Shown here in pieces: positions 16,524 through 33,916 of a stretch of 64,000 bases of DNA. The notes under the pieces were generated by a model. It did not search any database and was not told the origin of the DNA. It saw only the letters and a list, made by a program, of their open reading frames with translations. The position numbers were made by a program, and so were the translations under genes. Origin of the DNA: Oxalobacteraceae bacterium OTU3CAMAD1 (GTDB lineage: Bacteria > Pseudomonadota > Gammaproteobacteria > Burkholderiales > Burkholderiaceae_D); NCBI GenBank assembly GCA_024123915.1, contig CP099650.1, forward strand, positions 2,604,001 through 2,668,000. The letters are read 5' to 3'. Each line of letters opens with the position of its first letter. The first letter of the stretch is position 1.

Positions 16524-17738
16524 TCAGTCCTTCTTCAACACGTTCAGCACTTCGTAGCAGGCGCCCATGGTGTGGTAATCCACCTTGCCGGCCGGGCTTT
16601 TCTCGTCCGTCAGCTTGCTGTTGTCGGTGCCGAGGATGCGGTACCAGGCGCCGTGCTGGTGATCGACGAAATGCTCCCAGCTGTAAGCCCAGATCTTGTC
16701 GTACCAGGTCCAGTAGCTTGCTTCGCCGGTGCGCGCGCCCAGCAGGGCGGCGGTGGCCAGGCTTTCGGCCTGCACCCAGAAGTATTTGAGATCGTCGCAG
16801 ATGCTGTCGTCCGGCCCGAAGCCGTAGTAGATGCCGCCGTGCTGCGCGTCCCACGCCTTGTCCATCGCCGCGCTGAACAACTCCACCGCGCGCGGCAGCA
16901 GCCAGTCCTTGCCGCCTTCCAGCTGGTCGCCGTGGCGCTCCAGCAGCAGCAACAGCTTGGCCCATTCGGTCAGGTGGCCCGGCTGATAGCCCCACGGACG
17001 GAAGATATTGCTCTTGTCGTGGCGGTTGTATTCGGTGTCGACCGACCAGTCGGCGTGGTAGTGCTCCCAAATCAGATTGTCCGCCAACGCGGCCTGGCGC
17101 TGGGTGATGTTGCGCGCCAGCGTTTCGGCGCGCAACAGGAAGGCGCGCTCGCCGGTCGCTTCGAAGGCGGCAATCAGCGCTTCGCAGGCGTGCATGTTGG
17201 CGTTCTGGCCGCGATAGCCGTCCAGTGTCGACCAGTCGGCGCTGGCCTCGTCGGCATACAGGCCGTATTTGGCGTCCCAGAAGCGCCGTTCCATCAGCTC
17301 GAAGGTCTCGTCTATCCATGCGCGGGCCTCGGTCTCGCCGGCCATCAGCGCGTGGCTGTAGGCGAGCAGCACGAAGGCCAGGCCGTAACAGTGGTTGGTG
17401 CCGTCGGTGACGCGGCCTTCGCCGTTGTGCCAGTCCAGTTGCCACGCGTAGCCGCCGGTTTCCGGATTGCGGTGGGCGCCGCGCAGGAAGGCCAGGCCGT
17501 GGCGCAGGCGCTGCTGGTCGGCCGCCTCGCCGAACTGGCGCCAGGCCATCGCGTGGGTGAAGATGAAGCGCGTGCTGCTGACCAGATGGCGGGTGCGGGT
17601 GTCGTAGACGGTGCCATCATCCTTGTAGAAGTGATAGAAGCCGCCGCTGGCGTCCACGCAACGGTTGTCGTAGAAGTTGCGGGTGTGGCGGATGTGGTTG
17701 AGCAGCGTAGCGCGGGATTGAAAATCTGGTACCATCAT
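16524..17738 (-). CDS. AGE-family sugar epimerase/isomerase, probable D-mannose isomerase
   Basis: A 404-residue (alpha/alpha)6-barrel protein of the N-acylglucosamine 2-epimerase superfamily. Family features are HYHADWSVDTEYN, GYQPGHLTEWAKLLLLL with a catalytic-type His, and a C-terminal DYHTMGACYEVL with the second His. Members of the YihS/mannose isomerase branch interconvert mannose and fructose. It lies 71 bp downstream of the lacI-type regulator and directly before the kinase, consistent with one operon that turns mannose into fructose-6-phosphate. N-acetylglucosamine epimerase activity is an alternative. Confidence 0.85.
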   Translation of the reverse strand: MMVPDFQSRATLLNHIRHTRNFYDNRCVDASGGFYHFYKDDGTVYDTRTRHLVSSTRFIFTHAMAWRQFGEAADQQRLRHGLAFLRGAHRNPETGGYAWQLDWHNGEGRVTDGTNHCYGLAFVLLAYSHALMAGETEARAWIDETFELMERRFWDAKYGLYADEASADWSTLDGYRGQNANMHACEALIAAFEATGERAFLLRAETLARNITQRQAALADNLIWEHYHADWSVDTEYNRHDKSNIFRPWGYQPGHLTEWAKLLLLLERHGDQLEGGKDWLLPRAVELFSAAMDKAWDAQHGGIYYGFGPDDSICDDLKYFWVQAESLATAALLGARTGEASYWTWYDKIWAYSWEHFVDHQHGAWYRILGTDNSKLTDEKSPAGKVDYHTMGACYEVLNVLKKD

Positions 17739-18874: not shown

Positions 18875-18941
18875 CTCGGTCTCCAAATCTCTCATGAACC
18901 GGCTCGCGGCGGTGCCGTCGGCGGGTTTCTGGTGTGAATAC

Positions 18942-18971
18942 AGTCTTGCATAATCGTCCAGCCACGGTCAA
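18942..18971 (-). promoter_or_regulatory. Probable promoter of the lacI-type gene
   Basis: On the minus strand a -35 TTGACC (18971-18966) is followed after 18 nt by AAGACT (18947-18942), preceded by TG as in an extended -10. The operator-like repeat at 18996 lies 24 nt upstream. Confidence 0.5.
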
Positions 18972-18995
18972 ACGACACGTCGACTTTCCCGAAAA

Positions 18996-19016
18996 GTTTA
19001 GCGCAATTTACTAAAC
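18996..19016. promoter_or_regulatory. Operator-like inverted repeat, site 1
   Basis: A 21-bp inverted repeat, GTTTAG-N9-CTAAAC, in the lacI/symporter intergenic region. On the minus strand its edge is 24 nt from the TTGACC -35 of the lacI promoter. Confidence 0.75.
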
Positions 19017-19072
19017 ACGAGATTTTTAGCTGTACGCTGCAGCGCAACACGGCGTATCTGCTGGTATCGCGT

Positions 19073-19093
19073 GTTTAGTGAAGGCGGCTAAAC
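19073..19093. promoter_or_regulatory. Operator-like inverted repeat, site 2
   Basis: A second 21-bp GTTTAG-N9-CTAAAC repeat with the same arms as site 1, centred 77 bp from it. Its edge is 23 nt upstream of the TTGACC -35 of the symporter promoter. Confidence 0.75.
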
Positions 19094-19116
19094 TGCGCCC
19101 CAAACGCGCTTGCTAT

Positions 19117-19145
19117 TTGACCCTTGGGCGCTGCCGATGCAGAAT
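19117..19145 (+). promoter_or_regulatory. Probable promoter of the mannan-locus plus-strand operon
   Basis: TTGACC (19117-19122), 17 nt, then CAGAAT (19140-19145). The start site would be near 19152, about 34 nt before the symporter ATG. A -35 of TTGACC also appears at tpiA and the other promoters of this locus. Confidence 0.6.
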
Positions 19146-19185
19146 CTTTTCATTACTATAAAAACCATCCAAGAGGAGACAGCTG

Positions 19186-20454
19186 ATGGAGCACGTTGCA
19201 CCGGCAACTTTGAGTACCCACGATCATGCGCGTCAGGGCGGTGGCAGCAATACCTTCCCGATGATGATCATCACGCTGTTGTTCTTCATGTGGGGGTTGA
19301 TCACCTCGCTGAACGATGTCCTCATTCCCCACCTTAAATCGATTTATACGCTGACCTATGTGCAGGCGATGCTGGTGCAGTTCTGCTTCTTCGGCGCCTA
19401 CTTCATCGTCTCGCTCCCCGCCGGCATGTTGATCAAGCGCCTGGGCTACCAGCGCGGCGCGGTCGCGGGGCTGGTGGTCGCCGCCATCGGCTGCGCCATG
19501 TTCTATCCCGCCTCGATGGGCGGTTACGCGCTGTTCCTCCTGGCCTTGTTCGTCCTCGCCGGCGGCATCACCATCCTGCAAGTGTCCGCCAATCCCTACG
19601 TCGCGGCGCTGGGCGCGCCGGCCACCGCGTCGAGCCGCCTGACCCTGACGCAGGCGTTTAATTCGCTTGGCACCGCGATCGCTCCGGCGCTGGGCGGGTT
19701 CCTGATCCTGTCCGAAGGCGTTCCCGCCGTTGCCAACATCGTCAAGACCAAGGCAGAGGAAGCCGCCACCGTGCAGGGCCCTTACCTGGTGCTGGCCGCC
19801 ACCTTGCTGGCCATCGCCATCCTGTTCGCGCTGGTGCGCCTGCCGAAGATCGTCGACGCCGAAGAATCGGGCGCCTACACGTTGGATAAAAAAGTGACGT
19901 CGCACCGCCATCTGGTGCTGGGCGCGATCGGCATCTTCCTGTACGTCGGCGGAGAGGTCAGCATCGGCAGCTTCCTGATCAATTTCCTGGGCGAGTCCAA
20001 CATCGCCGGCATGTCGCACGGCGCCGCCGCCAACTACGTCAGCTTCTACTGGCTCGGCGCCATGATCGGCCGCTTCATCGGCTTCGGCGTGATGCGCTAC
20101 GTCAGCCCGGGCAAGGCGCTGGCCTTCAACTCGGCCGCGTCCATCGTGCTGCTGCTGACGGCGATCTTCTCCCACGGCGCGGTCGCCATGTGGGCCGTCA
20201 TCGCCGTGGGCCTGTTCAACTCCATCATGTTCCCGACCATCTTCAGCATGGCGCTGTACAAGCTCGGTCCCCTGACCAGCCAGGGTTCGGGCATCCTGTG
20301 CATGGCCATCGTCGGCGGTGCGCTGGTGCCGTTCGCGCAAGGCCTGCTGGCCGACACCATCGGCCTGCAGCTGTCGTTCTTCGTGCCGGCCGCCTGCTAT
20401 ACCTTTATCCTGTACTACGGCCTGAAATATGCCGGCATGTACTCAGACCGTTGA
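19186..20454 (+). CDS. FucP/GluP-type sugar:proton symporter (MFS)
   Basis: A 422-residue inner-membrane permease with about 12 transmembrane helices. Family features are the first helix [19 protein letters not shown], the A-motif-like [12 protein letters not shown], and [20 protein letters not shown] lies 7 nt before the ATG. It is the first gene of the plus-strand run of glycoside hydrolases and probably carries glucose, galactose or mannose released in the periplasm. The exact sugar cannot be read from the sequence. Confidence 0.9.
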
Positions 20455-20493
20455 TTTTTGATTTCGCCTTCCAATAATAAAGTGAGACAGCTA

Positions 20494-22797
20494 ATGAACT
20501 CCGAATTGAATCTGCGTCCGCTGGCCATCGCGCTGGCGGTGGCGGCAACGCTTGCCGCCGCAACCGTCGTCACCGTGGCGACCTCGCTGCCGGCCTACGC
20601 CGCCGGACAAGCGGCCACCGCGCCGGCCGAACCAACTTCCAAGCCTTGGCTGGACAAGTCGCTGAGCGCCGACAAGCGCGCCAAGCTGGCGCTGGAAGCC
20701 ATGACGCAGCAGGAAAAACTGAACTGGGTGCTGGGCTACTTCGGCGCCGACTTCGTCCCCAACAAGACCAAGAAGCATCCGGCGGCGCTGCCTTTCTCGG
20801 CCGGCTACATCCCCGGCGTGCCGCGTCTGGGCCTGCCGGCGCTGTTCGAGACCGACGCCGGCCTGGGCGTCGCCACGCAATTGAGCAAGAACCCGCGCGA
20901 GCGCACCTCGCTGCCTTCCGGCTTGGCCACCACCGCCACCTGGAACCGCGACCTGGCATACCAGGGCGGCGCCATGATCGGCCGCGAGGCGCGCGCCTCC
21001 GGCTTCAACGTGATGCTGGCCGGCGGCGTGAACCTGCTGCGCGAACCGCGCAACGGCCGTAACTTCGAATACGCCGGTGAAGATCCGCTGCTGGCCGGCA
21101 CCATGGTGGCACAGCAGGTCAAGGGCATCCAGTCCAACAACCTGATCGCGACGATGAAGCACTTCGCCGTCAACGACCAGGAGACCGGCCGCTTCGTGCT
21201 GGACGCCCGCCTGGACGACGCCAGCAACCGCATGTCCGACCTGCTGGCGTTCCAGTTCCTGCTGGAGCAGGCCGATCCCGGTTCCGTCATGTGCTCCTAC
21301 AATCGTCTGAACGGCGTCTACGCCTGCGAAAACGACTACCTGCTCAACCAGGTGCTGAAGAAGGACTGGGGCTTCAAGGGCTATGTGATGTCCGACTGGG
21401 GCGCAGTCCACAGCACCGTCGAATCGGCCAACAGCGGCCTCGATCAGCACTCCGGCTGGGAGTTCGACAAGTCGGCGTACTTCGGCGGAGCGCTGGAGGA
21501 AGCGGTCGAAAACGGTCACGTGCCGCAGGCGCGCCTCGACAACATGGCGTACCGGATCCTGTGGGCGATGTTCGACAAGGGCGTGGTCGACAACCCGGTC
21601 AAGGAGGGCGGCGCGATCGACTTCGAAGCGCACAAGCTGGTGAGCCAGGCCGACGCGGAAGAGGGCATCGTCCTGCTGAAGAACACCAACAGCGTGCTGC
21701 CGCTCAAGGCCGGCGCCAAAAAAATCGTCGTCATCGGCGCACACTCGGATGTCGGCGTGCTGGCCGGCGGCGGCTCGTCGCTGGTCTATCCGATCGGCGG
21801 CAATCCGGTGCCCGGCATCGAACCGACCATCTGGCCAGGTCCCGTGGTGTACCACCCGTCGTCGCCGCTGAAGGCGATCAAGGCCCGCGCCGGCGACGCC
21901 AAGGTCATCTACAACGACGGCAAGGATGCCGCAGCGGCGGCCAAGGAAGCGGCCGACGCCGATGTCGTTATCGTCTTCGCCGAGCAGTGGGTGGGCGAGG
22001 CGCTGGACGCCGTGTCGCTGTCGCTGCCGAACAACCAGGACGCGCTGATCGCCGCCGTCGCCAAGGCCAACCCGAAAACCGTGGTGGTGCTGGAGACCTC
22101 CGGTCCGGTGGTGATGCCATGGATCGACCAGACCGCCGCCGTGGTACAGGCCTGGTATGCCGGCAGCGGCGGCGGAGAGGCGATTGCCCGCGTGATGTAT
22201 GGCGAGGTCAATCCATCCGGCCACCTGCCGACCACCTTCCCGGTCTCCGAAAGCCAGCTGCCGCGTCCAAAGCTCGATGGCGATCCGAAGAAGGACCGCG
22301 AGCGCTTCACCGTCAACTATCATGAAGGCGCGGCCGTAGGCTACAAGTGGTTCGACGCCAAGGGCCTCAAGCCGCTGTTCCCGTTCGGCCACGGCTTGTC
22401 GTACACGCAGTTCTCGTACTCCGGCCTGGCCGCAAGCCAGAAAGACGGCAAGCTGCAACTGCGCTTCAAGGTCACCAACACCGGCGCCGTCAAGGGCAAG
22501 GACGTGCCGCAGGTATACGTATCTCCGGTAGGCGTGAAGTGGGAAGCGCCGAAGCGCCTGGCCGGCTGGGACAAGGTCGAACTGGCGCCGGGCGAGAGCA
22601 AGGACGTCAGCGTGACGGTCGATCCGCGCCTGCTGGCCATGTACGACAGCAAATCGAAGACCTGGCGTGTCGCCAGCGGCGGCTACAAGGTATTGCTGGC
22701 GCATGACGCCGGTAATGCCAATGATAGCAAGGCCACCAGCATCACCGTGCAGCTACCCAAGCAGACTTTGAACGTCGCAGGCAAGCCAATTAAGTAA
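20494..22797 (+). CDS. GH3 beta-glucosidase, exported
   Basis: A 767-residue glycoside hydrolase family 3 enzyme. An N-terminal signal segment (about 8-38, ending LPAYAAG) is followed by the TIM-barrel domain with KHFAVNDQETGR and the nucleophile Asp301 in VMSDWGAVHS. Then come the alpha/beta sandwich (VVVIGAHSDVGVLAGGGSS) and a C-terminal fibronectin III-like domain (GLSYTQFSYSG onward). The ATG at 20494 is chosen for its signal peptide; an upstream TTG is less likely. In a glucomannan locus it would remove glucose from the non-reducing ends of oligomers; cello- or other beta-glucosides are alternatives. Confidence 0.93.
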   Translation: MNSELNLRPLAIALAVAATLAAATVVTVATSLPAYAAGQAATAPAEPTSKPWLDKSLSADKRAKLALEAMTQQEKLNWVLGYFGADFVPNKTKKHPAALPFSAGYIPGVPRLGLPALFETDAGLGVATQLSKNPRERTSLPSGLATTATWNRDLAYQGGAMIGREARASGFNVMLAGGVNLLREPRNGRNFEYAGEDPLLAGTMVAQQVKGIQSNNLIATMKHFAVNDQETGRFVLDARLDDASNRMSDLLAFQFLLEQADPGSVMCSYNRLNGVYACENDYLLNQVLKKDWGFKGYVMSDWGAVHSTVESANSGLDQHSGWEFDKSAYFGGALEEAVENGHVPQARLDNMAYRILWAMFDKGVVDNPVKEGGAIDFEAHKLVSQADAEEGIVLLKNTNSVLPLKAGAKKIVVIGAHSDVGVLAGGGSSLVYPIGGNPVPGIEPTIWPGPVVYHPSSPLKAIKARAGDAKVIYNDGKDAAAAAKEAADADVVIVFAEQWVGEALDAVSLSLPNNQDALIAAVAKANPKTVVVLETSGPVVMPWIDQTAAVVQAWYAGSGGGEAIARVMYGEVNPSGHLPTTFPVSESQLPRPKLDGDPKKDRERFTVNYHEGAAVGYKWFDAKGLKPLFPFGHGLSYTQFSYSGLAASQKDGKLQLRFKVTNTGAVKGKDVPQVYVSPVGVKWEAPKRLAGWDKVELAPGESKDVSVTVDPRLLAMYDSKSKTWRVASGGYKVLLAHDAGNANDSKATSITVQLPKQTLNVAGKPIK

Positions 22798-22823
22798 CCA
22801 TCCATAAAAAGAGAGAACGAGAC

Positions 22824-24155
22824 ATGAAACAACTCTACAAATTCTGCGCGACCGCGTTGATGATCAGTGCCTGCGGCATCGTGTCCGCCGCCGATGGCGC
22901 GCCGGTCAGCAAAGGCGATTTCGTCACCGCCAAGAAGACCCATTTCGCCCGCAAAGGCCAAGCCTATTACATCGTCGGCGCCAACTTCTGGTACGGCGGC
23001 TACCTTGGCGCGCCAAAAGGCGTGGGCGAGCGCGCCCGCCTGCTGAAGGAACTCGATAGCATGCGCGCGATCGGCATCAACAACCTGCGTGTACTGGCCG
23101 TCTCCGAGAAGACCGATATGAAGAGCGCCGTCAGCCCGGCGACCACCGCCAAGCCGGGCGAGTACGACGAGAACCTGCTGGTCGGCCTGGACTTCCTGAT
23201 GGCCGAAGCGGCCAAGCGCGATATGACCGTGGTGCTCTACCTGAACAACTTCTGGCAGTGGTCGGGCGGTATGACGCAGTACCTGAACTGGTTCGAAGGC
23301 ACGCCGGCGCTGGACCCGAACGTGACCAAGGACTATGACGACTACATGAAGAAGAACGCGCGCTTCTACGTCAACGCGGCGGCGCAAAAAGAGTACCGTA
23401 ATGTGATCCAGAAGATCGTCAAGCGCGTCAACACCATCACCGGCAAGCCGTATTCGGAAGACCCGATCCTGATGTCGTGGCAGCTGGCCAACGAGCCGCG
23501 CCCGGGCAACGGCAACGCCACGCCGGAAGAGAAGAAGGCCTACGTCAAGTGGATCGACGAAACCGCCGCCTATATCCATAGCCTGGACAAGAACCACATG
23601 GTCAGCAGCGGCAGCGAGGGCCTGGCCGGTTCCGCCCAGGACGCGCAGCTGTTCCTCGACTCGCACCGCACCAAGCATATCGACTACCTGACCTATCACC
23701 TGTGGCCGAAGAACTGGGGCTGGTTTGATTCCAAGGACCCAACTGGTTCGTGGGACGGCGCCATCACCAAAAGCCGCAACTACCTGACCTCGCACATCGA
23801 CCTGGCCAAGAAGCTGGACAAGCCTATCGTGCTGGAGGAATTCGGCCTCGATCGCGACGGCGCCTCGTTCAGCATCAAGGCCACCACCAAGATCCGCGAC
23901 CGCTTCTACCGCGAAGTGTTCGACTTCGTCTACGACGGCGCCAAGAAGGGCGATCCGATCGCCGGCTTCAATTTCTGGGCCTGGGGCGGCGCCGGACGCG
24001 CGGCCAATGCGGACTACTGGTGGAAGCCGGGTAACGACTTTGTCGGCGATCCTCCGCAGGAAGAGCAGGGCCTGTACTCGGTGTTCGATTCGGACACCAG
24101 CTCGCTCAAGCTGATCAAGGAATACGCCGACAAACTCAATACCATCAAACGCTAA
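22824..24155 (+). CDS. GH5 endo-beta-mannanase-like protein, exported
   Basis: A 443-residue protein with a signal peptide (about 1-23, CGIVSAADG). The clan GH-A barrel of the GH5 subfamily 7 type shows GANFWYGGYLG near the start, acid/base Glu224 in QLANEPRPG, and nucleophile Glu339 in VLEEFGLDR. The segment NFWAWGGAGR supplies an aromatic subsite. This family cuts the beta-1,4-mannan backbone. It lies 26 bp after the GH3 gene and 10 bp before the alpha-galactosidase, in one operon. No carbohydrate-binding module is seen, so it may act on oligomers in the periplasm. Confidence 0.9.
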   Translation: MKQLYKFCATALMISACGIVSAADGAPVSKGDFVTAKKTHFARKGQAYYIVGANFWYGGYLGAPKGVGERARLLKELDSMRAIGINNLRVLAVSEKTDMKSAVSPATTAKPGEYDENLLVGLDFLMAEAAKRDMTVVLYLNNFWQWSGGMTQYLNWFEGTPALDPNVTKDYDDYMKKNARFYVNAAAQKEYRNVIQKIVKRVNTITGKPYSEDPILMSWQLANEPRPGNGNATPEEKKAYVKWIDETAAYIHSLDKNHMVSSGSEGLAGSAQDAQLFLDSHRTKHIDYLTYHLWPKNWGWFDSKDPTGSWDGAITKSRNYLTSHIDLAKKLDKPIVLEEFGLDRDGASFSIKATTKIRDRFYREVFDFVYDGAKKGDPIAGFNFWAWGGAGRAANADYWWKPGNDFVGDPPQEEQGLYSVFDSDTSSLKLIKEYADKLNTIKR

Positions 24156-24165
24156 GGGGCCGCGC

Positions 24166-25380
24166 ATGAAACGTACCGTGTTAAGCATGGTCGCGGCGTC
24201 CGCCTGCGCATTCGGATTCAATGCCCACGCCCAGAAGTTCGACGGGCTGGCAGACACGCCGCAGATGGGCTGGAACAGCTGGAACACCTTCGCTTGCGAC
24301 ATCAACGAACAGCTGATCAAAGACACCGCCGACGCGATGGTAAAGAGCGGCTTGAAGGACGCCGGCTACCAGTACGTCAACATCGACGATTGCTGGCACG
24401 GTAAACGCGACGAAACGGGCGCGATCCATCCGGACAAGGAGCGCTTCCCGTCCGGTATGAAGGCGCTGGCCGACTACGTCCATAGCAAGGGCCTCAAAAT
24501 CGGCATTTATTCGGACGTCGGCGCCACCACGTGCGGCGGTCGTCCGGGCAGCCGTGGCTACGAGTACCAGGACGCGCGCACCTATGCGTCCTGGGGCATC
24601 GACTACATCAAGTACGACTGGTGCGACAGCAAGGGCCTGAACGCCGTCGGTGCCTACACCACCATGCGCGACGCCATCCACGCCGCCGGCCGGCCGATGT
24701 TGTTCAGCATTTGCGAATGGGGTGACAACAAGCCGTGGGAATGGGCCAAGGACGTCGGCCACTCGTGGCGCACCACCGGTGACATTCACATGTGCTTCGA
24801 TTGCGAATTCAGCGAGGCGTCGTACTCGCGCTGGGGCGTGCTGCAGATTCTCGACAAGCAGGCGGGCCTGCGCGTGCATGCCGGTCCGGGTCACTGGAAC
24901 GATATGGACATGCTGGAAGTGGGCCGTGGCTTCACCGAAGACGAGGACCGCACCCACTTCGCCGCCTGGTCGATGCTGACCTCGCCGCTTATCCTCGGCA
25001 ACGACGTCCGCAAGATGTCCGAGGCCACGAAGCGCATCCTGACCAACAAGGCGGTGATCTCGATCAACCAGGATAAGCTGGGCATCCAGGCATGGCGCTT
25101 CCTGCAGTCCGGCCAGTTGGAGTACTGGGCCAAGCCGCTGGCCAACGACGAGTGGGCCGTGATGATCCTGAACCGCAGCGACGAGGCCAAGCCGGTGACT
25201 TACCAGTGGTCCGCCTCGCGTATCAACGACGATGCGAACAAGCGCGTGCTCGACACCACCAAGACGGTCTTCAACTGGACCGACGCGTTCACCGGCAAGA
25301 CCGGCGACACCAGCAAAAAACTGGAGAGCAAACTGGCTCCGCACGGCGTGATTGTTTTGCGCCTGAAGGCCCGGAGCTGA
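24166..25380 (+). CDS. GH27 alpha-galactosidase, exported
   Basis: A 404-residue family 27 enzyme with a signal peptide (about 1-22, FNAHAQ). Signature TPQMGWNSWNTFACDI opens the barrel. The nucleophile is Asp151 in IKYDWCDS and the acid/base is probably Asp206 in WRTTGDIH; HWNDMDMLEVG follows. The C-terminal beta domain ends in HGVIVLRLK. It removes alpha-1,6-galactosyl side groups from galactomannan, fitting its place between the mannanase and the GH2 gene. Confidence 0.95.
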   Translation: MKRTVLSMVAASACAFGFNAHAQKFDGLADTPQMGWNSWNTFACDINEQLIKDTADAMVKSGLKDAGYQYVNIDDCWHGKRDETGAIHPDKERFPSGMKALADYVHSKGLKIGIYSDVGATTCGGRPGSRGYEYQDARTYASWGIDYIKYDWCDSKGLNAVGAYTTMRDAIHAAGRPMLFSICEWGDNKPWEWAKDVGHSWRTTGDIHMCFDCEFSEASYSRWGVLQILDKQAGLRVHAGPGHWNDMDMLEVGRGFTEDEDRTHFAAWSMLTSPLILGNDVRKMSEATKRILTNKAVISINQDKLGIQAWRFLQSGQLEYWAKPLANDEWAVMILNRSDEAKPVTYQWSASRINDDANKRVLDTTKTVFNWTDAFTGKTGDTSKKLESKLAPHGVIVLRLKARS

Positions 25381-25381
25381 A

Positions 25382-28300
25382 ATGAAGCACACGATGACTG
25401 TGGCGGCGTTGGCCGCGATGATGTGGTCCGGCGCCCAAGCCGGCGACCAGTGGGGGCCCTATAACGCAGAGTTCCCGGCCGCCAGCGATGGTTTGCTGAA
25501 GAAGGTCAAGCAGGCCGACATCTTCGCGTCGGCGGTGGCAGGCAGGGTACAGCCGTTCGGTTTGAGCGGCTGGTTCAAACCATCGGAGCCGGCGCCCGGC
25601 CGCACCTTGATCGCCGGCTTTGCCGGCGCGCAGGCTGGGCCGGGCTGGTTTGTGTGCAGCGTGGACGGCGCGTTTGCTTTCTGCGGCTATGGGCTGGAAT
25701 TGGTCTCGCCGTTGAAGCTCGCGTCGAACGCCTGGGTGCACCTGGCGGCCAGCTATGACGGCAAACAAGTCACCTTGTACGCCAATGGCAGCGCGGTCGC
25801 CCGCCAGGACGCGGCGCTGAAGGCCGAGGAGTTCAAGCCGGTCCAGGTCAAGGACGGCGCGCAGGCCGCGCCGGCCGACGACTTCGGCCCCCGGATTTCG
25901 CTGGGCCCGCGCAGCAGGGCCGCGACAGGCTATGCCGGACGGATCGCCGGCTTCACCGTCACCAGTACCGCGCTGGACGAAGGCGCGGTGCGCGCGATGG
26001 CGGCCGTGCAGCCGAACGACGCGTTGATCAATTTCGAGTCCGGCAGTCCGTCGTGGCCGATACAGGTTCGCCAGATGTACGGCCAGGTCGCGCCGCAGGA
26101 CCCGTGGACCTTGCCAAAATCCGGTTCGCCGTTCCAGGAACCGAAGGCCAAGCCGGCCTACAGCGGTCCGGCGCTGGTGCAAAAAGACGCCAACCTGTGG
26201 ACCATCAAGTCGTGGAAGCTGCAGGCGGCGCCGCAGGTCGACGCCAAGCCGGAGCGAATTTCGTCCGCCGGCTTCGACACCGCCGGCTGGTATCAGACCA
26301 CCACGCCCGGCACGGTGCTGACCACACTGGTCGATCGCGGCGTCTATCCCGATCCCGACTACGGCCTCAATAACATGGCCATTCCGGAATTGCTGAACAA
26401 ACAGGATTACTGGTATCGTACCTTGTTCCAGCCGCCGACCGCCTTAAAACAGGGGCAGCGTTTGTTCGTCACGTTCAAGGGGGTGAACTACGAGGCGGAA
26501 GTCTGGATCAATGGCCGCAAGCTGGGTGGCATGAAGGGCGCCTTCGTACGCGGCACCTTCGACATCAGCCCCTATCTGAAGCTCAAGGGCGAGAACGTCA
26601 TCGCGGTCAAGGTATCGCCGCCGCCCCATCCAGGCCTGCCGCAGGAGGAATCGATCGCGGCGGGCGCCGGCGAAAACGGCGGCACGCTGGCGCAGGACGG
26701 CCCGACCTTTATCGCCTCCGAGGGGTGGGACTGGATTCCCTCGGTCCGCGACCGTAACACCGGCTTGTGGCAGGACGTGGAGCTGCACGCCACGCGCGAC
26801 TTCAAGCTGGGCGACGCCCAGGTGATTACCGCGCTGCCGAAGGCCGACAACAGCGTGGCCGACGTCAGCATCGAGGTGCCGGTCACGAACCTGTCCAAAT
26901 CGGCGCAGCGGGTGACCGTGCGCGCGACGATCTCGCGCCGGGACGGCGGCATGAAGCCTGTCCAGGTGAGCAAGACCGTCAATCTGGCGCCGGGCGAGCA
27001 TAACGTGCGTTTCACGCCGGCCGATTTCGCCGCGCTCAAGCTGAAGAATCCCAAGCTGTGGTGGCCCAACGGCTACGGCGCACCTGATCTGCATGAACTC
27101 AAACTCGAGGCGGTGCAGGGCGCGCAGCTGTCCGACCAGGCCAGCATCCGGTTCGGCGTGCGCGCGGTGACGTACGAACTGTCGCTGGTCGACCAGAGCG
27201 GCCATCTGCGCCGCGTGGAAGCCGACTTCACCAAGGGGCGTGAACTGGGCGTGCGCATCACCGACGGCCGCCACCAGTCCATCCGCAAGCTGTCGGATAA
27301 CAACTGGGCCACGGGACTGCGGCCGGAGGCGGAATGGACGGCGGCGATTCGTCCGCTGGAGGAAACCACGCTCAGTCCTTTCCTCGTCATCAAGGTCAAT
27401 GGCGTGCGCATCGCGGCGCGCGGCGGCAACTGGGGCACGGAAGACTGGCGCAAACGCGTCGACCGTGAACGGCTCGAGCCTTACTTCCGCCTGCATCGCG
27501 ACGCCAACGTCAACATCATCCGCAACTGGGTGGGGCAGAACACCGAGGAGAGCTTCTTCGAACTGGCCGACGAATATGGCTTGATGGTGATGAACGACTT
27601 CTGGGCCTCGACCCAGGATTACAACCTGGAGCCGCAGGACGTCAACCTGTTTATGGAGAACGCGCGCGATGTCGTCAAACGCTATCGCAACCATCCGTCG
27701 GTGATCATGTGGTTCGGCCGTAACGAGGGAGTGCCGCAGCCGGTGCTGAACGAGGCGCTCGAGGCGATGATTTATCAGCTCGACGGCACGCGCTGGTACA
27801 GCGGCAGCTCGAACCGCGTCAATTTGCAGAACAGCGGCCCGTATAACTACCAGACGCCGGTCAGTTACTTCACAGACCACGCCAAAGGCTTTTCGGTGGA
27901 AGTGGGCACGCCGTCGTTCCCGACGATGGAGGCGATCAAGGCGGCGGTGCCGTCGACCGACCAGTGGCCTTTGAGCGACACCGTCACGTATCACGACTGG
28001 CACCCGGACGGCAACGGCAGCGTCAAGACCTTCAATGCGGCGATGGCGACCGGTTACGGCGCGCCCGACTCGCTGGCGGACTTCGAACGCAAGGCCCAGT
28101 TGCTGAACTACGAAAGCCACCGCGCCATCTTCGAAGGCATGAACGCGGGCCTGTGGCGCCAGCACAGTGGACGCATGCTGTGGATGACGCAGCCGGCCTG
28201 GCCGAGCACCATGTGGCAGATACTCAGCCACGACTACGATACGCACGGCGCCTTCTATGGCGTGAAGAACGCGGCGGAGCCGGTGCACGTGCAAATGAAC

Positions 28301-28894
28301 CTGCCCGATTATCAGCTGATGGTGATCAACAACCCGGCCGCCGCGCTGAATGGCGCCACGCTGTCCTACGCCGCCTATGACGTCAAGGGCAAGCTGTTGG
28401 CGAGTGGCGACAAGCCGGTGACGGTAGCGGCGGTAAGCACGTCCGAACCGATCGACGCCGGCATCGCCGCCTTGCTGGCGCAGCATAAGCTGATCGTGAT
28501 CAAACTGGCGCTCAAGGACGCCGATGGCAAAGTGCTGTCGCAGAACGCGTACTGGCCGAGCAGCACGCTGGCCGGCCAACAGGGCTTGAACCAGCTGGCG
28601 ACCGTGCCGCTGGAACTGGCCGCGCGCTGGACCGGCGCCGCAGTGCCGGGCGAACGGCAGTTGGAGGTTACAATGCGCAACGGCGGCGAAGTGCCTGCCT
28701 TGAGCGGTAAACTGACCTTGTTCAATGCGGACGGCGAGAGAATACTGCCGGTGTATTTTTCGGATAATTATGTAGCGCTGATGCCGGGCGAGAGCCGCAC
28801 CGTGACCGTCACGTTCAAGAGCCAGGGCGCGGTGCGCCTGGATCTGCGTGGCTGGAACGTGGCGCCGCAATCGCTGCCGGTGGGCGCGCAATGA
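25382..28894 (+). CDS. GH2 exo-glycosidase (probable beta-mannosidase) with N-terminal LamG-like domain
   Basis: A large exported enzyme of 1170 residues. A signal peptide (1-20) is followed by a concanavalin/LamG-like domain (about 45-205, GLSGWFKPSEPAPG ... WVHLAASYDGKQVTLY). Then come GH2 sugar-binding and immunoglobulin-like domains (about 270-590) and the TIM barrel. Acid/base Glu782 lies in WFGRNEG and the likely nucleophile Glu840 in SVEVGTPSFPT. The active site resembles the mannosylglycoprotein endo-beta-mannosidase/exo-glucosaminidase branch of GH2. The mannan context favours beta-mannosidase, but exo-beta-glucosaminidase cannot be excluded, as a GlcNAc cassette lies nearby. It starts 1 nt after the GH27 stop, with GGAG upstream. 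Confidence 0.88.
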   Translation: MKHTMTVAALAAMMWSGAQAGDQWGPYNAEFPAASDGLLKKVKQADIFASAVAGRVQPFGLSGWFKPSEPAPGRTLIAGFAGAQAGPGWFVCSVDGAFAFCGYGLELVSPLKLASNAWVHLAASYDGKQVTLYANGSAVARQDAALKAEEFKPVQVKDGAQAAPADDFGPRISLGPRSRAATGYAGRIAGFTVTSTALDEGAVRAMAAVQPNDALINFESGSPSWPIQVRQMYGQVAPQDPWTLPKSGSPFQEPKAKPAYSGPALVQKDANLWTIKSWKLQAAPQVDAKPERISSAGFDTAGWYQTTTPGTVLTTLVDRGVYPDPDYGLNNMAIPELLNKQDYWYRTLFQPPTALKQGQRLFVTFKGVNYEAEVWINGRKLGGMKGAFVRGTFDISPYLKLKGENVIAVKVSPPPHPGLPQEESIAAGAGENGGTLAQDGPTFIASEGWDWIPSVRDRNTGLWQDVELHATRDFKLGDAQVITALPKADNSVADVSIEVPVTNLSKSAQRVTVRATISRRDGGMKPVQVSKTVNLAPGEHNVRFTPADFAALKLKNPKLWWPNGYGAPDLHELKLEAVQGAQLSDQASIRFGVRAVTYELSLVDQSGHLRRVEADFTKGRELGVRITDGRHQSIRKLSDNNWATGLRPEAEWTAAIRPLEETTLSPFLVIKVNGVRIAARGGNWGTEDWRKRVDRERLEPYFRLHRDANVNIIRNWVGQNTEESFFELADEYGLMVMNDFWASTQDYNLEPQDVNLFMENARDVVKRYRNHPSVIMWFGRNEGVPQPVLNEALEAMIYQLDGTRWYSGSSNRVNLQNSGPYNYQTPVSYFTDHAKGFSVEVGTPSFPTMEAIKAAVPSTDQWPLSDTVTYHDWHPDGNGSVKTFNAAMATGYGAPDSLADFERKAQLLNYESHRAIFEGMNAGLWRQHSGRMLWMTQPAWPSTMWQILSHDYDTHGAFYGVKNAAEPVHVQMNLPDYQLMVINNPAAALNGATLSYAAYDVKGKLLASGDKPVTVAAVSTSEPIDAGIAALLAQHKLIVIKLALKDADGKVLSQNAYWPSSTLAGQQGLNQLATVPLELAARWTGAAVPGERQLEVTMRNGGEVPALSGKLTLFNADGERILPVYFSDNYVALMPGESRTVTVTFKSQGAVRLDLRGWNVAPQSLPVGAQ

Positions 28895-28905
28895 AAGGAT
28901 TCAAG

Positions 28906-29652
28906 ATGAAGAAGTCCCTGATCTCCGCGATCGTCGCCGCCGGCCTGCTGGCGTTGAGTAGTGCCCCCAGTTACGCCGACGCGGCCCTGAGCCCTGCCGC
29001 GTGCAGCACCACCCCGGCGCCGCGCAAAATCGAGTACCCGTGGATGTCGGTGGCGCGCTGGCACCAGATGTTCAACGAGGATGTCGCGGTCGCCGATGCC
29101 GGCAACGTCGATCTGCTGTTTGTCGGCGACTCCATCACCGAAGGCTGGAACCAGCAGATATGGGACAAGTCCTTCGGTTCATGGAATGCGGCCAATTTCG
29201 GCATCGGCGGCGACCATACCGGCAACGTGCTTTGGCGGCTCGATAACGGACACGCCGAAAAGCTGCATCCCAAGCTGGTGGTGCTGACGATCGGCGTGAA
29301 CAACTTCTTCCATTGCGGTGCCGCGCCGGCCGACGTGTTCGAAGGCGTGCAGGCGGTGGTCAAGAAGCTGCGCGGGCTGTATCCGGATGCGAAGATACTG
29401 CTCAACGCCGTGCTGCCGTACGAGCAATCGGCACAGAGTCCCAAGCGGCAGCAGATCATTGAGTTGAACCGCAAGATATCGACGCTGGGCGATGGCAAAA
29501 CCATCATCTTCAAGGACTACGGCGCGCGCTTCCTGCTGTCGAACGGCGACATGTCGCCGGACGTGATGGCCGACTTCCTGCACCCGACGCCCAAGGGCTA
29601 TCAGATCTGGTCCGATGCGATGCTGCCGGACATACAGAAGCTAATGAAGTAA
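28906..29652 (+). CDS. SGNH/GDSL hydrolase, probable carbohydrate acetylesterase
   Basis: A 248-residue exported SGNH hydrolase resembling the platelet-activating-factor acetylhydrolase subunit fold. A signal peptide (about 1-23, APSYADA) precedes block I FVGDSITEGW with Ser76, block II GIGGDHTGNVLWRL, block III TIGVNNFF with Asn, and block V DFLHPTPKG with Asp223/His226. The catalytic set is complete. The ATG at 28906 has AAAGGA 6 nt upstream; an ATG at 28891 overlaps the GH2 stop and is less likely. By context it deacetylates mannan oligomers. Confidence 0.87.
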   Translation: MKKSLISAIVAAGLLALSSAPSYADAALSPAACSTTPAPRKIEYPWMSVARWHQMFNEDVAVADAGNVDLLFVGDSITEGWNQQIWDKSFGSWNAANFGIGGDHTGNVLWRLDNGHAEKLHPKLVVLTIGVNNFFHCGAAPADVFEGVQAVVKKLRGLYPDAKILLNAVLPYEQSAQSPKRQQIIELNRKISTLGDGKTIIFKDYGARFLLSNGDMSPDVMADFLHPTPKGYQIWSDAMLPDIQKLMK

Positions 29653-30716
29653 TGAACGGCGCCCAACGCCGTATCACCGGCTGCGCGGCGTTGCTTGCCG
29701 CGCTATGGGGCCAGGCCCCGCTGGTCGCGGCGGCGTCGATGACGGCCGCCGATCCACATGTCGCCCGGATGGGTCGAACCGGTATCGACGCCGATGGCGC
29801 CGTGCGGTTTGGCTATCCGGGCGTTAGTTTTTATCTCAACTTCGAAGGCACGCGCCTGAGCGTCGAGGCGGAGGCCAGCGGCGGAAACAGCTACCTGGAC
29901 GTGATCGTCGATGGCGTCGCGCGCAAGGTGCGGCTGGCGTACGGCAGGCAGACCGTTACCCTGGTCGACGGCGCCTCCGCCGGCAGGCACATGGTGGAAA
30001 TCGTCAACCGTTCCGAGACCTGGCACGGCACCGCCGCGTTGCTGCGCTTCGACACCGACGGCAAATGGAACGCTCCGCCCGTCCTCCCTCAACGCAAAAT
30101 GCTGGTGCTGGGCGATTCCGTCACCTGCGGCGAGGCGATCGACCGCGTGGCCGGGGCGAAGAAGGATACGTCCTGGTGGAACGCGCGTTCATCCTACGGC
30201 ATGCTGATGGCGCGCGAGCTGCACGCGCAGGTGCAGTTGGTCTGCTACGGCGGTCGGGGCTTGATACGTACCTGGGAAAACAAGACCGACGAAATGAATC
30301 TGCCGGACTATTATCAGTTGGCGGTCGCGGACCTGCAAAAGCCGGTACGCTGGGACCAGCGGGATTATCGGCCCGATGTGATTCTCAGCACGATCGGTAC
30401 CAACGACTTCAATCTCGGAATTCCAGATCGCGAGCAGTATGTGGGCACCTACGTGCGGTTCGTGCACACGCTGTTGAAGGATCATCCGCAGGCGCAAATC
30501 ATGCTGTCCGAGGGCGGTTTGGTGACCGGCGAGAAGAGGGTGGCGTTGATCGAATATATCGCCGAGACGGTAAAGCGGGTGGGGGACAAGCGCGTTCGCG
30601 CGATCGCGTCGAAACCCTATTCCGGCGATGCGGATGACGGGCATCCGACCCGGGAGCAAACCGTCAATATCGCCAACGATTTGCTCCCCCAGGTTCGTGT
30701 GATTATGAATTGGTGA
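29652..30716 (+). CDS. Carbohydrate esterase family 2-like acetylesterase
   Basis: A 354-residue protein with a signal peptide (about 1-28). An N-terminal jelly-roll domain (about 40-145, FYLNFEGTRLSVEAEA) is followed by an SGNH domain with GDSVTCGE (Ser156), YGGRGLIRTW, IGTNDFN and DGHPT (Asp329, His331). This two-domain layout is typical of CE2, whose characterised members deacetylate glucomannan and xylan. Its ATG overlaps the previous stop (TAATG), so it is the last gene of the plus-strand operon. Two esterases of different families in one operon suggests attack on differently placed acetyl groups. Confidence 0.85.
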   Translation: MNGAQRRITGCAALLAALWGQAPLVAAASMTAADPHVARMGRTGIDADGAVRFGYPGVSFYLNFEGTRLSVEAEASGGNSYLDVIVDGVARKVRLAYGRQTVTLVDGASAGRHMVEIVNRSETWHGTAALLRFDTDGKWNAPPVLPQRKMLVLGDSVTCGEAIDRVAGAKKDTSWWNARSSYGMLMARELHAQVQLVCYGGRGLIRTWENKTDEMNLPDYYQLAVADLQKPVRWDQRDYRPDVILSTIGTNDFNLGIPDREQYVGTYVRFVHTLLKDHPQAQIMLSEGGLVTGEKRVALIEYIAETVKRVGDKRVRAIASKPYSGDADDGHPTREQTVNIANDLLPQVRVIMNW

Positions 30717-30738
30717 GTGTTTAGGTCGCCGACGGAGC

Positions 30739-30772
30739 TTGGCGGATTAGGCGGAACGCCGTAATCCGCCAA
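30739..30772. repeat. REP-like palindrome between convergent genes
   Basis: TTGGCGGATTA and TAATCCGCCAA form a perfect 11-bp stem, extended by GGCG/CGCC with one bulge around GAA. It lies between the CE2 stop and the TonB receptor stop. It could act as a bidirectional terminator, though no T-run is present. It is related to the element at 45808. Confidence 0.75.
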
Positions 30773-30777
30773 ACGCC

Positions 30778-33483
30778 TTAGTAGTTCGCGCCAACCCGGA
30801 ACCCGAACATGCGAGGCTGTACGAAATTGGCCTCCATGAACCCACCAAACACCGAATTTCCGCTCAGTTTCGCATGGCTGTTCGAGATGTTACGGACATA
30901 CAGCTCCGCGTGCCACTTGTCGTCCGGCGCTTCCAGCCGCACCGACGCGTCGCCCATCGCATACGCCTTCTGATAGCGGCCGACGTGCGCGAACTCCGAA
31001 TTGAGCATGTCGAAGTAAGCCTTGTCGCGCCAGTTCACCTTCACATACGGGATCACCTTGTAGCCGTTTTCAAACCCGAACTCCTGCGAGAAGTTGATGT
31101 TGAACTGGTACTTCGGCGTGTTCGGCAGGTGGTTGCCGTCGATGTTGGCCAGGCGGCGGCCCAGCAAGGTCTTATCCGGACCGTTGTAGGCGGTCGGGCA
31201 GGCCGGCAGGCCCAGTTCCACGCGCACGTCGCACTGGTAGTCGTCGCTGTACGAGTTGTAGTCGTGGATGCTGGAGTTGATGTAAGCGAAACCGCCGCCG
31301 ATACGGCCGCCGCGCCATGGCTTGTAATCCCATTCCAATTCGAGGCCAGGGATATTCACCTTGCCGACGTTGATGGTGCGCCAGCCTTCATACACGTCGC
31401 ACTTCGGCTGGTCGGCCGGGCAGGGCAGGCCGTTCGATGGAATGATCTGGTTGATGAAGTAGGTGCCGGTGACCTGCATGTCCTTGTACTTCATGAAGAA
31501 CGCGGTGGCCGACAGGCTTAAACGGTTGTCCAGGAATTTGCCCTTGAAGCCCAGCTCATAGTTGGTGACGGTCTCCGGCTCGTACGGCAGGAAGGTCTCG
31601 ACGCCGGGTTTGCCATCTGCGCACAGGCGGTAGTTGCAGCTGTCCGTCTTGTCGGCGAAGCCGCCGGCCTTGTAGCCGGTCGACACAGAGGCGTACACCA
31701 TCTTGTTGGCGTCGAGCTGCTTCTGCAGGCCGGCACGCCACGTCACTTTTTTCCATTCCTGTTTGTGATCGTTCGAGGTCGGCGCGCCATACAGGTTGTA
31801 AGCGGCCACGCTGCCGCCCATGCCGGGCGTCAGGTCGGTGCCGTCATGGACGCGGAAGCCGGGCGTGCCGGGCGTGCCTTGCGAATACAGGCCGTTGTAA
31901 TAGGCCGAATTGCCGATCCAGTTGGCGCCATACACCTTGCCGCCCTTGTCCTCTTTGCTGTCGATGCTGTAACGCGCGCCGAGGGTACCGGTCCACGTTG
32001 GCATGAACTTCCAGTCGGCTTGGGCGAAGACCGCCTTGGCGTCGACCTGGCGGTTAGGCTGGTTATACAGCACGCTGCCGACATCGCCGTACGGCTTCTG
32101 GATGGTGTTGGTCTGCTCGTAGTCGATGCGGTTACGCTCGTGCATCCAGAACAAGCCGCCGACGTACTGCACATTGCCCAGCTGCTGCTTCAACTGCGCC
32201 TCGTGCACGGTCGACAGATAGCGCGAATCGAGCGTGCGGTGGAAGGAGTCGGTCAGCGGCCAGGTGCCCCAGTTGCCGTCGACCGAATTCGGATACGCGC
32301 CGTTGATCTGGAACGGCGCCGCGTGCTGCATGCCCAGGTCGTCGTCGGTGATCTGCGAGCGGGTTTGGTCGGCGACCTGGAAGGTGTAGTCGAAGTTGGT
32401 GTGGTCGTTGATGTTCCAGTTGATCCCCGTGCGCAGCGTCTTGATACTCAGGTCGTTCTGTCCGGGGACGTTGACGTTAATGTCCCACTTGCCCTGACCC
32501 GGGCCGCAGGCGTAGCGGGTGCCCGCCGTGGCGGCGCAATCGCGGAAGGTGGCGCCGCCGGCGCCGGAATCCTGGAACTGCTCATACGACGCCTTGGCCG
32601 TGAGGTCCTTGTTGATCTTCAAAAGACCGGTCAGGCGGCCGGCCCATTCGTCCTGGTTGGTGTAGTAGTCGCTCGGGCCGACCACGCGGTTGAAGCGCTG
32701 GTCGACATCCGGTTTGCCGTTCGGGACCCAGCCCAATGCCGGCGCGTTGGCTTCGCTCAGGTCGCGCGTCTGGTTGGCGTAGCCGTCGCGCTTGACCTTC
32801 ATGAACGTCGCGCGCAACGCCAGCGCGTCGTTGACGACGATGTTCTGCACCACCGAGATCTGCTTCTTGCGGTAGTTGCCGATATCGATGTCGGCCTTGC
32901 CGTAGTTGCCCGTCCAATCCGGCTTGGCGGGAATCACGTTGACGCTGCCGCCGGTGGAGTTGCGGCCGAACAGCGTGCCTTGCGGGCCGCGCAGCACCTC
33001 GACCTGTTCCAGGTCGAACATCAGCGCCTGCGCGCCTTGTGGACGCGGCGAGTACATGCCGTCGACGTGGAAGCCGACCGCCGGATCGCCGGTCTCGGTG
33101 AAGTTGGTGGAGGTGATGCCGCGGATGGTGATCTGCACGGCCGAATCCTCGCCGGTGTTTTCGATCACGACGTTGGGCATCTCGCCGCTCAAATCGGAGA
33201 GGCTGGTCGCGCCTTTGCGGGTCAATTGATCCTGGCTGAGTGCGGCGACGGCGAGCGGAGTACGCAGCAGCGAAGTGGAATAGCGGGTCGCGGTGACGCG
33301 CACTTCCTGGATCTGGTCCGGATTGGCTGCCGTGGGTGCTGCGGGTGCTGCGGGTGCGCCGGCTTGCGCCTCGGCTGCGGGTGCGGTTGCGGTGTCAGCC
33401 TGGGCCTGGGCGCTGAAGGTCATGAACGAGCAAGCGCTGGCGACGGCCAGGCTCATGAGAGTACGTCTTGTGGGGTGCAACAT
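30778..33483 (-). CDS. TonB-dependent outer-membrane receptor (mannan locus)
   Basis: A 901-residue receptor: signal peptide (about 1-29, TFSAQAQA), an Ala/Pro-rich linker, a plug domain (about 60-180, LSGEMPNVVIENTG ... VEVLRGPQGTLFGRNSTGG) and a 22-stranded barrel ending in FGFRVGANY. It would import oligosaccharides with TonB energy. The ATG at 33483 has GAGGAGA about 8 nt upstream; the longer frame has no ribosome site. It is transcribed towards the esterase gene. Its promoter carries the third copy of the operator repeat (33623), tying it to the LacI-type regulator. Confidence 0.92.
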   Translation of the reverse strand: MLHPTRRTLMSLAVASACSFMTFSAQAQADTATAPAAEAQAGAPAAPAAPTAANPDQIQEVRVTATRYSTSLLRTPLAVAALSQDQLTRKGATSLSDLSGEMPNVVIENTGEDSAVQITIRGITSTNFTETGDPAVGFHVDGMYSPRPQGAQALMFDLEQVEVLRGPQGTLFGRNSTGGSVNVIPAKPDWTGNYGKADIDIGNYRKKQISVVQNIVVNDALALRATFMKVKRDGYANQTRDLSEANAPALGWVPNGKPDVDQRFNRVVGPSDYYTNQDEWAGRLTGLLKINKDLTAKASYEQFQDSGAGGATFRDCAATAGTRYACGPGQGKWDINVNVPGQNDLSIKTLRTGINWNINDHTNFDYTFQVADQTRSQITDDDLGMQHAAPFQINGAYPNSVDGNWGTWPLTDSFHRTLDSRYLSTVHEAQLKQQLGNVQYVGGLFWMHERNRIDYEQTNTIQKPYGDVGSVLYNQPNRQVDAKAVFAQADWKFMPTWTGTLGARYSIDSKEDKGGKVYGANWIGNSAYYNGLYSQGTPGTPGFRVHDGTDLTPGMGGSVAAYNLYGAPTSNDHKQEWKKVTWRAGLQKQLDANKMVYASVSTGYKAGGFADKTDSCNYRLCADGKPGVETFLPYEPETVTNYELGFKGKFLDNRLSLSATAFFMKYKDMQVTGTYFINQIIPSNGLPCPADQPKCDVYEGWRTINVGKVNIPGLELEWDYKPWRGGRIGGGFAYINSSIHDYNSYSDDYQCDVRVELGLPACPTAYNGPDKTLLGRRLANIDGNHLPNTPKYQFNINFSQEFGFENGYKVIPYVKVNWRDKAYFDMLNSEFAHVGRYQKAYAMGDASVRLEAPDDKWHAELYVRNISNSHAKLSGNSVFGGFMEANFVQPRMFGFRVGANY

Positions 33484-33570
33484 TGTGTCAGTCTCCTCGA
33501 TGTTTTTGGAATTATGGAAAGTGCCAGCACCGCAGGTTGTCTGATACGGCTTAGCTTCCTGGCAATGCGG

Positions 33571-33599
33571 AGTATCGATCCGTAATTTTCGAGGGTCAA
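33571..33599 (-). promoter_or_regulatory. Probable promoter of the mannan-locus TonB receptor
   Basis: On the minus strand TTGACC (33599-33594), a 17-nt spacer, then GATACT (33576-33571). The start site would be near 33564, leaving a leader of about 80 nt. Confidence 0.6.
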
Positions 33600-33622
33600 A
33601 TGAAACCAAATTTGAAACCGAT

Positions 33623-33643
33623 GTTTAACAAAATTTACTAAAC
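33623..33643. promoter_or_regulatory. Operator-like inverted repeat, site 3
   Basis: A 21-bp repeat GTTTAA-N9-CTAAAC, one arm base different from sites 1 and 2. Its edge is exactly 23 nt upstream of the receptor -35, the same as for site 2. Confidence 0.7.
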
Positions 33644-33916
33644 ACACAATATTTTGCTGTTTTTTGGTTACCGTGGTTATGAAGACACAAGGCTGTAATT
33701 TCTCGAACTGTTTTGTAAAGATTTGCAAGCATGCATTGCGCAATACCCTGGACAGGAAAGGGGGCGAACGGTGGCTTTGTAAAGAAATGTAAGCGGTATC
33801 ACAGTTGAAATAGACCTGTTTTCAATAAAAACAATGGCTTAGGCGCGGCGGGGCGAGCGCTGGCCTGAGTGGTATTGCACTGGTAGCATGACTCATCGAT
33901 AACTTGGGGGAGCCCC
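33644..33916. other. Intergenic region between the mannan and GlcNAc cassettes
   Basis: A 273-nt, AT-richer stretch between two divergent genes; with the receptor leader the gene-free span is 433 nt. It must hold the nagP promoter, but no clear -35/-10 pair is seen. An inverted repeat TTGAAA-N9-TTTCAA lies at 33805-33825, and AGTGGTATTG is followed by CACTGGTA near 33868-33885. No small gene or RNA is recognised. Confidence 0.5.

Follow-up and report, generated by a model that had tools for sequence, protein, structure and literature searches.

A conserved operator and promoter module accompanies a LacI-family regulator lacking canonical hinge residues at a putative galactoglucomannan locus of Oxalobacteraceae

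A 64-kb stretch of DNA from Oxalobacteraceae bacterium OTU3CAMAD1 (hereafter the window) carries a LacI-family regulator gene that diverges from a transporter and hydrolase operon, and three copies of a 21-bp inverted repeat, GTTTAR-N9-CTAAAC. The repeat is the upstream part of a directional promoter module that is conserved together with the regulator gene in related genera, and the regulator lacks the hinge residues characteristic of much of its family. From these sequence comparisons we propose, with a probability of roughly 60%, that the protein, a ManR-like regulator of galactoglucomannan use, binds the repeat and activates transcription from about -70.

Results

The inverted repeat occurs at four places in the genome

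A pattern scan located GTTTAR-N9-CTAAAC at the three positions given in a preliminary description of this DNA, and, as stated there, the exact pattern is found nowhere else in the window.

18996..19016, minus strand: operator 1, GTTTAGTAAATTGCGCTAAAC on the minus strand; faces lacI; found by pattern scan and kept upstream of lacI in relatives
19073..19093, plus strand: operator 2, GTTTAGTGAAGGCGGCTAAAC; faces the transporter/hydrolase operon; found by pattern scan
33623..33643, minus strand: operator 3, GTTTAGTAAATTTTGTTAAAC on the minus strand; faces the TonB-dependent receptor gene; module kept before 25 of 26 receptor orthologues

When up to two mismatches were allowed, nine strand matches were obtained in the window compared with 1.65 expected (standard deviation 1.65; maximum of 6 in 100 shuffles), and none of them lies between 19094 and 33622. 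Across the whole genome (7,481,272 bp, one contig) the exact pattern occurs at four places, three of which are in the window. The fourth, at genome positions 5566664-5566684, lies 2.9 Mb away, faces a tryptophan-halogenase-like gene and has TTGTTC 23 bp downstream.

L103 2353-3906 (genome 5564852-5566405): tryptophan-halogenase-like gene, PF04820, E 6.7e-179

The arms of the window copies had been described as alike, which is correct, and their centres as differing, which needs refining: oriented to the gene that it faces, each window site reads GTTTAGTRAA-N5-(C/T)TAAAC, so that all three share a longer promoter-distal arm, GTTTAGTRAA, and the centres are not wholly unrelated. The distant copy lacks this extension. 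A single mismatch keeps site 3 from being a perfect palindrome: its proximal arm is TTAAAC rather than CTAAAC. The arm spacing is N9 at all four promoters. Even palindromes with a central CG are typical, though not universal, among LacI/GalR operators; the present operator is odd, 21 bp long and without CG, as the preliminary description had remarked, and its counterpart is a regulator without hinge-helix residues (see below).

The operator lies at a near-fixed distance upstream of a predicted core promoter

What had been missed is the placing of these sites, some 60-80 bp before the predicted transcription start and off the core promoter. Each forms part of a rigid, directional module consisting of the operator, 23 or 24 bp, TTGAC(C), about 17 bp and a -10 element.

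18966..18971, minus strand: TTGACC, -35-like element for lacI, following operator 1 after 24 bp; near-constant distance in relatives
18943-18948, minus strand: CAAGAC, -10-like element of the lacI promoter, from the sequence
19117..19145, plus strand: TTGACC-N17-CAGAAT, putative operon core promoter, following operator 2 after 23 bp; conserved
33571..33599, minus strand: TTGACC-N17-GATACT, putative receptor-gene core promoter, following operator 3 after 23 bp; from the sequence and receptor orthologues

A sigma-70 consensus scan of 18880-19200 independently reported TTGACC-17-CAGAAT at 19117-19145. All four genomic sites have TTG 23 or 24 bp downstream, and a genome search for the arms together with TTG at 21-26 bp returned these four sites plus one opposite-direction read of site 2. 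Site 3 was also considered as an operator of the NagP-like gene at 33917; this assignment was rejected, there being no TTG at the proper distance on that side.

The same geometry prevails over the whole set of loci fetched. After collapsing identical 171-bp contexts, 155 distinct GTTTA-N11-TAAAC sites were obtained, and in 104 of these one of the two orientations places TTGAC at exactly 23 or 24 bp past the site; shuffling the flanks 200 times gave 0.6 such sites on average and never more than 5. This count is unconditioned; the gap spread in the core-promoter comparison is conditioned on 22-25 bp. The next peaks in TTGAC distance, at 51 and 52 bp, are those to be expected from operators paired 28 bp apart. 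With a 17-bp spacer and the predicted transcription start, the operator would be centred near -69/-70 and cover about 59-80 bp upstream of the start.

These data bear on whether the repeats are a product of chance or a structural feature of AT-rich intergenic DNA, such as a cruciform or terminator. The arms are indeed AT-rich and intergenic, yet their sequence, orientation and distance to the -35 element are conserved across genera, which contradicts this explanation, and no terminator-like element was detected at sites 1 and 2 in the scan of 18880-19200 (site 3 lies outside it). We consider this explanation highly improbable.

The module accompanies the regulator gene in relatives

A genus sample of 74 genomes, including that of OTU3CAMAD1, was divided into 44 with a LacI orthologue of at least 79% identity and 30 without. 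The motif is present in 43 of the former and in 3 of the latter, which strongly supports the link among regulator, hydrolases and receptor advanced in the preliminary description. In the 44 orthologue genomes there are 134 motif sites versus 34 for a reversed control pattern; the 30 remaining genomes contain three, one in each of three genomes, versus 19 for the control.

The regions upstream of the regulator genes were then compared in a set of 83 genes from 79 loci, defined by BLAST matches starting by residue 45 and reaching residue 300. Modules were counted with one arm mismatch, spacers of 8-10 and gaps of 21-26 bp, taking the first match. Since the genomes compared are related and hence not independent, these numbers express conservation and not separate events.

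At least 79% identity: operator 41/41, lacI-side module 38/41, divergent module 36/41
70-78% identity: operator 16/16, lacI-side module 14/16, divergent module 10/16
55-63% identity (Undibacterium, Paucibacter, other Massilia and relatives): operator 19/26, lacI-side module 17/26, divergent module 2/26

The sites of the Undibacterium/Paucibacter class mostly have GTTTA(C/G)TAAA and GCTAAA(A/C) arms with a spacer of 8-10. Arm spacing thus takes the values N8, N9 and N10 across lineages, and in some relatives the two divergent operators differ, one being N9 and the other N10. The start-to-start distance of the divergent operators is 28, 42, 76, 77, 78, 79 or 88 bp, depending on the genome.

A different transcription factor, encoded elsewhere and co-inherited with the mannan locus, might own the motif: the genome encodes at least 17 other LacI-type proteins plus further regulators, and binding by the LacI-family protein is itself predicted. 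Against such a factor, a site with at most one arm mismatch lies within 400 bp upstream of the regulator gene or its homologue in 76 of 83 cases (41+16+19), the site follows the regulator gene into Undibacterium and Paucibacter, and 27 of the 30 genomes without an orthologue have no copy. The three single matches (G033, G041, G062) lack the module in the contexts examined: those in G033 (L057) and G041 (L062) are low-complexity-like, and that in G062 (L111) is operator-like with no TTG at 22-25 bp. G033 and G062 do hold a regulator homologue of 70-72% identity. We judge ownership by another factor to be improbable.

Some further occurrences were recorded among the relatives. Four genomes, G033, G012, G017 and G062 (L066, L067, L068, L069), carry two regulators of the subfamily about 10 kb apart, 70-72% and 57-58% identical to the window regulator. 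Copies of the motif precede genes of GH92, an alpha-mannosidase family, in two relatives, G023 (L092) and G035 (L101); G035 alone has TTGACC nearby, as TTGACC-N17-TATAAA at 25 bp. GTTTAGTR..TAAAC repeats with TTGACG 6-7 bp downstream occur at L094 2563-2583, L096 2742-2762, L097 2625-2645 and L119, near a GH3 gene in L094 and a TonB receptor gene in L097. These short-gap repeats may mark another regulon whose motif is similar.

The receptor and halogenase promoters carry a single conserved site

Allowing three mismatches and gaps of 22-25 bp, the module is present before 25 of 26 receptor orthologues of at least 78% identity, and in all 25 the distal arm is GTTTAGTAAA, the spacer is 9 and the gap is 23 bp. 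The promoter-proximal arm is more degenerate in the receptor promoters of relatives. Four receptor homologues of lower identity were examined; the module was found at one (L297, 58%) and was missing from three at 55-56%.

For the halogenase gene, with three mismatches and TTG at 22-25 bp, the module precedes 16 of 21 orthologues of at least 82% identity (one with a gap of 22 bp, two with two arm mismatches) and none of the nine examined homologues of 72% identity or less. All 21 orthologues are in genomes that also hold an orthologue of the LacI regulator. Each of the 26 receptor and 16 halogenase upstream regions contains exactly one site at two mismatches or fewer. Chance was considered as the origin of the fourth copy and rejected, as the module is conserved before halogenase orthologues. 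This conservation means that the regulon is not purely local: the view of the locus as a shared unit under the LacI-type regulator, taken in the preliminary description, is supported, but the regulon very likely reaches beyond the mannan locus.

The regulator lacks the canonical hinge residues

17810..18895, minus strand: LacI-family regulator, 361 amino acids, without a YxPxxxAxxL hinge (Pfam, paralogue alignment, models)

By its domains the protein is a member of the LacI family, with an N-terminal LacI-type helix-turn-helix (HTH) domain (PF00356, E 1.1e-11, above the cut-off) and a C-terminal periplasmic-binding-protein-like sensor domain (PF13377, E 2.6e-30), and it lacks both the hinge and the CG features of the family. 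Its linker reads GYDFCKLRPKRLRRLTFLL and does not contain the YxPxxxAxxL motif. Compared with the linkers of the 17 other LacI-type proteins encoded in this genome it is about four residues shorter, and it is the sole one with a four-residue gap. The hinge alanine and leucine or methionine are matched in register by 15 of the 18 genome proteins with a LacI-type HTH domain; one has the alanine only (L225) and one the leucine only. L232, where the match is out of register and the hinge alanine is a glycine, is not among the 15. The mannan-locus regulator alone has neither. What stands in place of the hinge is conserved among homologues: residues L68, R74, R75, F78-H81, Q83 and H84 are invariant in 29 sequences down to 56% identity.

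In an AlphaFold2 model, residues 61-75 of the regulator show just a three-residue turn (65-67), where a canonical paralogue has a helix at 63-69; the control paralogue has another alignment and the two models differ in quality, and we use them as supporting evidence only. According to the accessible text of two family studies, a hydrophobic hinge-helix residue, mostly leucine, and an alanine are tied to the central CG in the LacI family (PMC2978694), and YxPxxxAxxL marks the more closely related LacI/GalR subfamilies, not all of them (PMC3877293). An operator without a central CG thus matches a regulator without the hinge-helix residues. Among the best 120 of 834 homologues (E<=1e-40; 7998 candidates scored) none bears a more specific functional name than LacI-family regulator. 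Of the named loci listed, from which the window's own species may be missing, those of Duganella sp. CF517 and Duganella sp. 1411 come closest, with 98% identity over the regulator.

Gene content points to galactoglucomannan use

15590..16522, minus strand: sugar kinase of the PfkB family; fructokinase is the top NCBIfam model, below the cut-off
16524..17738, minus strand: epimerase of the AGE family; D-mannose isomerase is the top NCBIfam model, below the cut-off
19186..20454, plus strand: GluP/FucP-type sugar symporter of the major facilitator superfamily (MFS); gluP subfamily model above the cut-off
20458..22797, plus strand: GH3 glycosidase; profile matches
22824..24155, plus strand: exo-beta-mannosidase-like enzyme without a Pfam match at 0.001; very similar to Man5A (PDB 1uuq, E 1.1e-167)
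24166..25380, plus strand: alpha-galactosidase, Melibiase_2, which we take to be GH27
25382..28894, plus strand: GH2 enzyme similar to exo-glucosaminidase and beta-mannosidase
28891..29652, plus strand: GDSL-type acyl hydrolase; profile match
29652..30716, plus strand: CE2 acetylxylan esterase/glucomannan deacetylase; AxeC2 NCBIfam model above the cut-off
30778..33483, minus strand: TonB-dependent receptor, with the start ATG taken at 33483; converges on the operon from the right

Together these genes look like a full galactoglucomannan set, which would provide uptake, debranching, deacetylation, mannosidase activity and conversion of mannose to fructose and fructose phosphate. The substrate and the ligand of the regulator are likewise predicted from gene content. 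The pairing of a Man5A-type exo-mannosidase (PDB 1uuq) with an alpha-galactosidase is shared with the man5A-type mannan degradation genes of Cellvibrio.

Beyond the receptor gene, a 19-bp direct repeat, TTTGTAAAGANNTGYAAGC, is present at 33712-33730 and 33776-33794, 64 bp apart. These are the sole copies in the window at two mismatches or fewer (0 expected) and are upstream of a set of genes for an MFS transporter, a TonB receptor and a GH20 protein. A candidate to bind them is the OmpR-type response regulator encoded at 42008-42715.

Discussion

We propose that the LacI-family protein would bind at four promoters: that of lacI itself, that of the transporter/hydrolase operon, and those of the TonB receptor gene and the distant tryptophan-halogenase-like gene. 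An operator ending 23 bp upstream of the -35 element should not occlude polymerase, and the fact that this distance hardly varies suggests an upstream contact with RNA polymerase. The bound dimer would most likely make this contact, probably with the C-terminal domain of the alpha subunit. A mannan-derived sugar would trigger activation, and the outcome would be a coordinated, positively autoregulated induction. Without a hinge helix wedging into a central CG, the two DNA-binding heads could take arms that are 8-10 bp apart. The weak -10 boxes of lacI and the operon in Duganella (CAAGAC, CAGAAT), of the kind expected of activator-dependent promoters, favour activation. Looping between paired operators was set aside: a phased loop is unlikely because the distance between the divergent operators drifts, and there is one site each at the promoters of the receptor and halogenase genes.

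A number of observations weigh against this proposal. One receptor orthologue (L278) and five of the 21 halogenase orthologues have no module, and two of the nine module-negative halogenase homologues are in regulator-bearing genomes (G030, G072). Genome G039 has the orthologue and no strict motif, its lacI site having a spacer of N10, and in G006 and G036 the strict match is not at lacI, where the site again has N10. Loci L165 and L174 have the site with no recognisable -35 element at the module distance, and the gap between operator and -35 element is 22 bp twice and 25 bp three times among homologous regulator genes. At L163 (Pseudoduganella namucuonensis) TTGACC abuts the lacI operator (gap 0). 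The same region contains a second -35-like element, TTGCAA, at 22 bp; this may be a rearranged promoter. The linker has a predicted local distance difference test (pLDDT) score below 50 in both AlphaFold2 models, and the regulator model is the poorer (72.8 vs 90.1). Finally, the 55-63% homologues have near-consensus core promoters, TTGACG and TATAAA at 17 or 18 bp, that would need an activator less.

The last point also suits the reverse sign of regulation, in which the same protein at the same sites is a repressor that holds polymerase from about -70 or blocks an activator until a mannan sugar releases it. LacI-family regulators are mostly repressors. E. coli GalR, in the available part of the source, likewise acts on RNA polymerase from an upstream operator, OE at -60.5, repressing gal P1 through polymerase contacts and activating P2 (PMC4693257). 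As GalR does both from such a position, the position leaves the sign open. CytR is described as working by anti-activation, blocking CRP (PMC3454398), and GlyR2 of Clostridium thermocellum, likewise LacI-type, associated with a mannanase gene and mannobiose-responsive, is described as a repressor (PMC10766802). What argues against repression here is that the operator leaves the -35 and -10 elements free wherever the module is present, together with the single-site receptor and halogenase promoters, the drifting distance of the paired operators and the weak Duganella -10 boxes. We regard repression as less probable than activation from about -70.

Activation of this kind resembles several known systems in part. 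Class I CRP-type promoters, with operators centred at -61.5 and -71.5, likewise have their operator well upstream of the -35 element at a fixed helical phase, for a binder of another family. GalR operators are 16 bp long and include a second one at an internal position (PMC4693257, partial text), whereas the present operator is 20-22 bp, lies near -70 and has no internal counterpart with up to two mismatches between 19094 and 33622. CytR provides a precedent in the LacI family for relaxed arm spacing, attributed to a flexible, unstructured linker; its spacing differs from promoter to promoter within a genome, and CRP is its partner (PMC3454398, as far as the accessible text goes), whereas here the spacing is N9 at all four promoters and 8-10 between lineages. 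GlyR2 belongs to a Gram-positive organism, and we liken it to the present regulator by its description only. In the available text of the RegPrecise survey, 1251 of 1303 LacI-type motifs are even palindromes, 4% are odd and 1173 have a central CG, and mannose/mannoside regulons are listed as ManR in five LacI-family groups (PMC4052901). The present operator is unlike most surveyed motifs, and it may be that of one of the ManR groups. A literature search, with most subscription papers and the RegPrecise motif tables beyond reach, returned no published description of this regulon.

LacI-family proteins are the textbook repressors, and insertion of the hinge helix at a central CG is their textbook mode of binding. 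Tentatively, and with less confidence than for activation at this locus, we suggest that a LacI lineage of Oxalobacteraceae and neighbouring Burkholderiales may have given up both the hinge helix and the central-CG operator to become a dedicated class I-type activator, acting from about -70 with positive autoregulation on glycan-uptake promoters and a halogenase gene. If the proposal is correct, a conserved subfamily without hinge helix and central CG, with an activator-like operator position at its conserved targets, would show how activation came to be served by the LacI fold. Mannan-responsive genes, the halogenase gene among them, could then be predicted directly in the 44 genus genomes with an orthologue.

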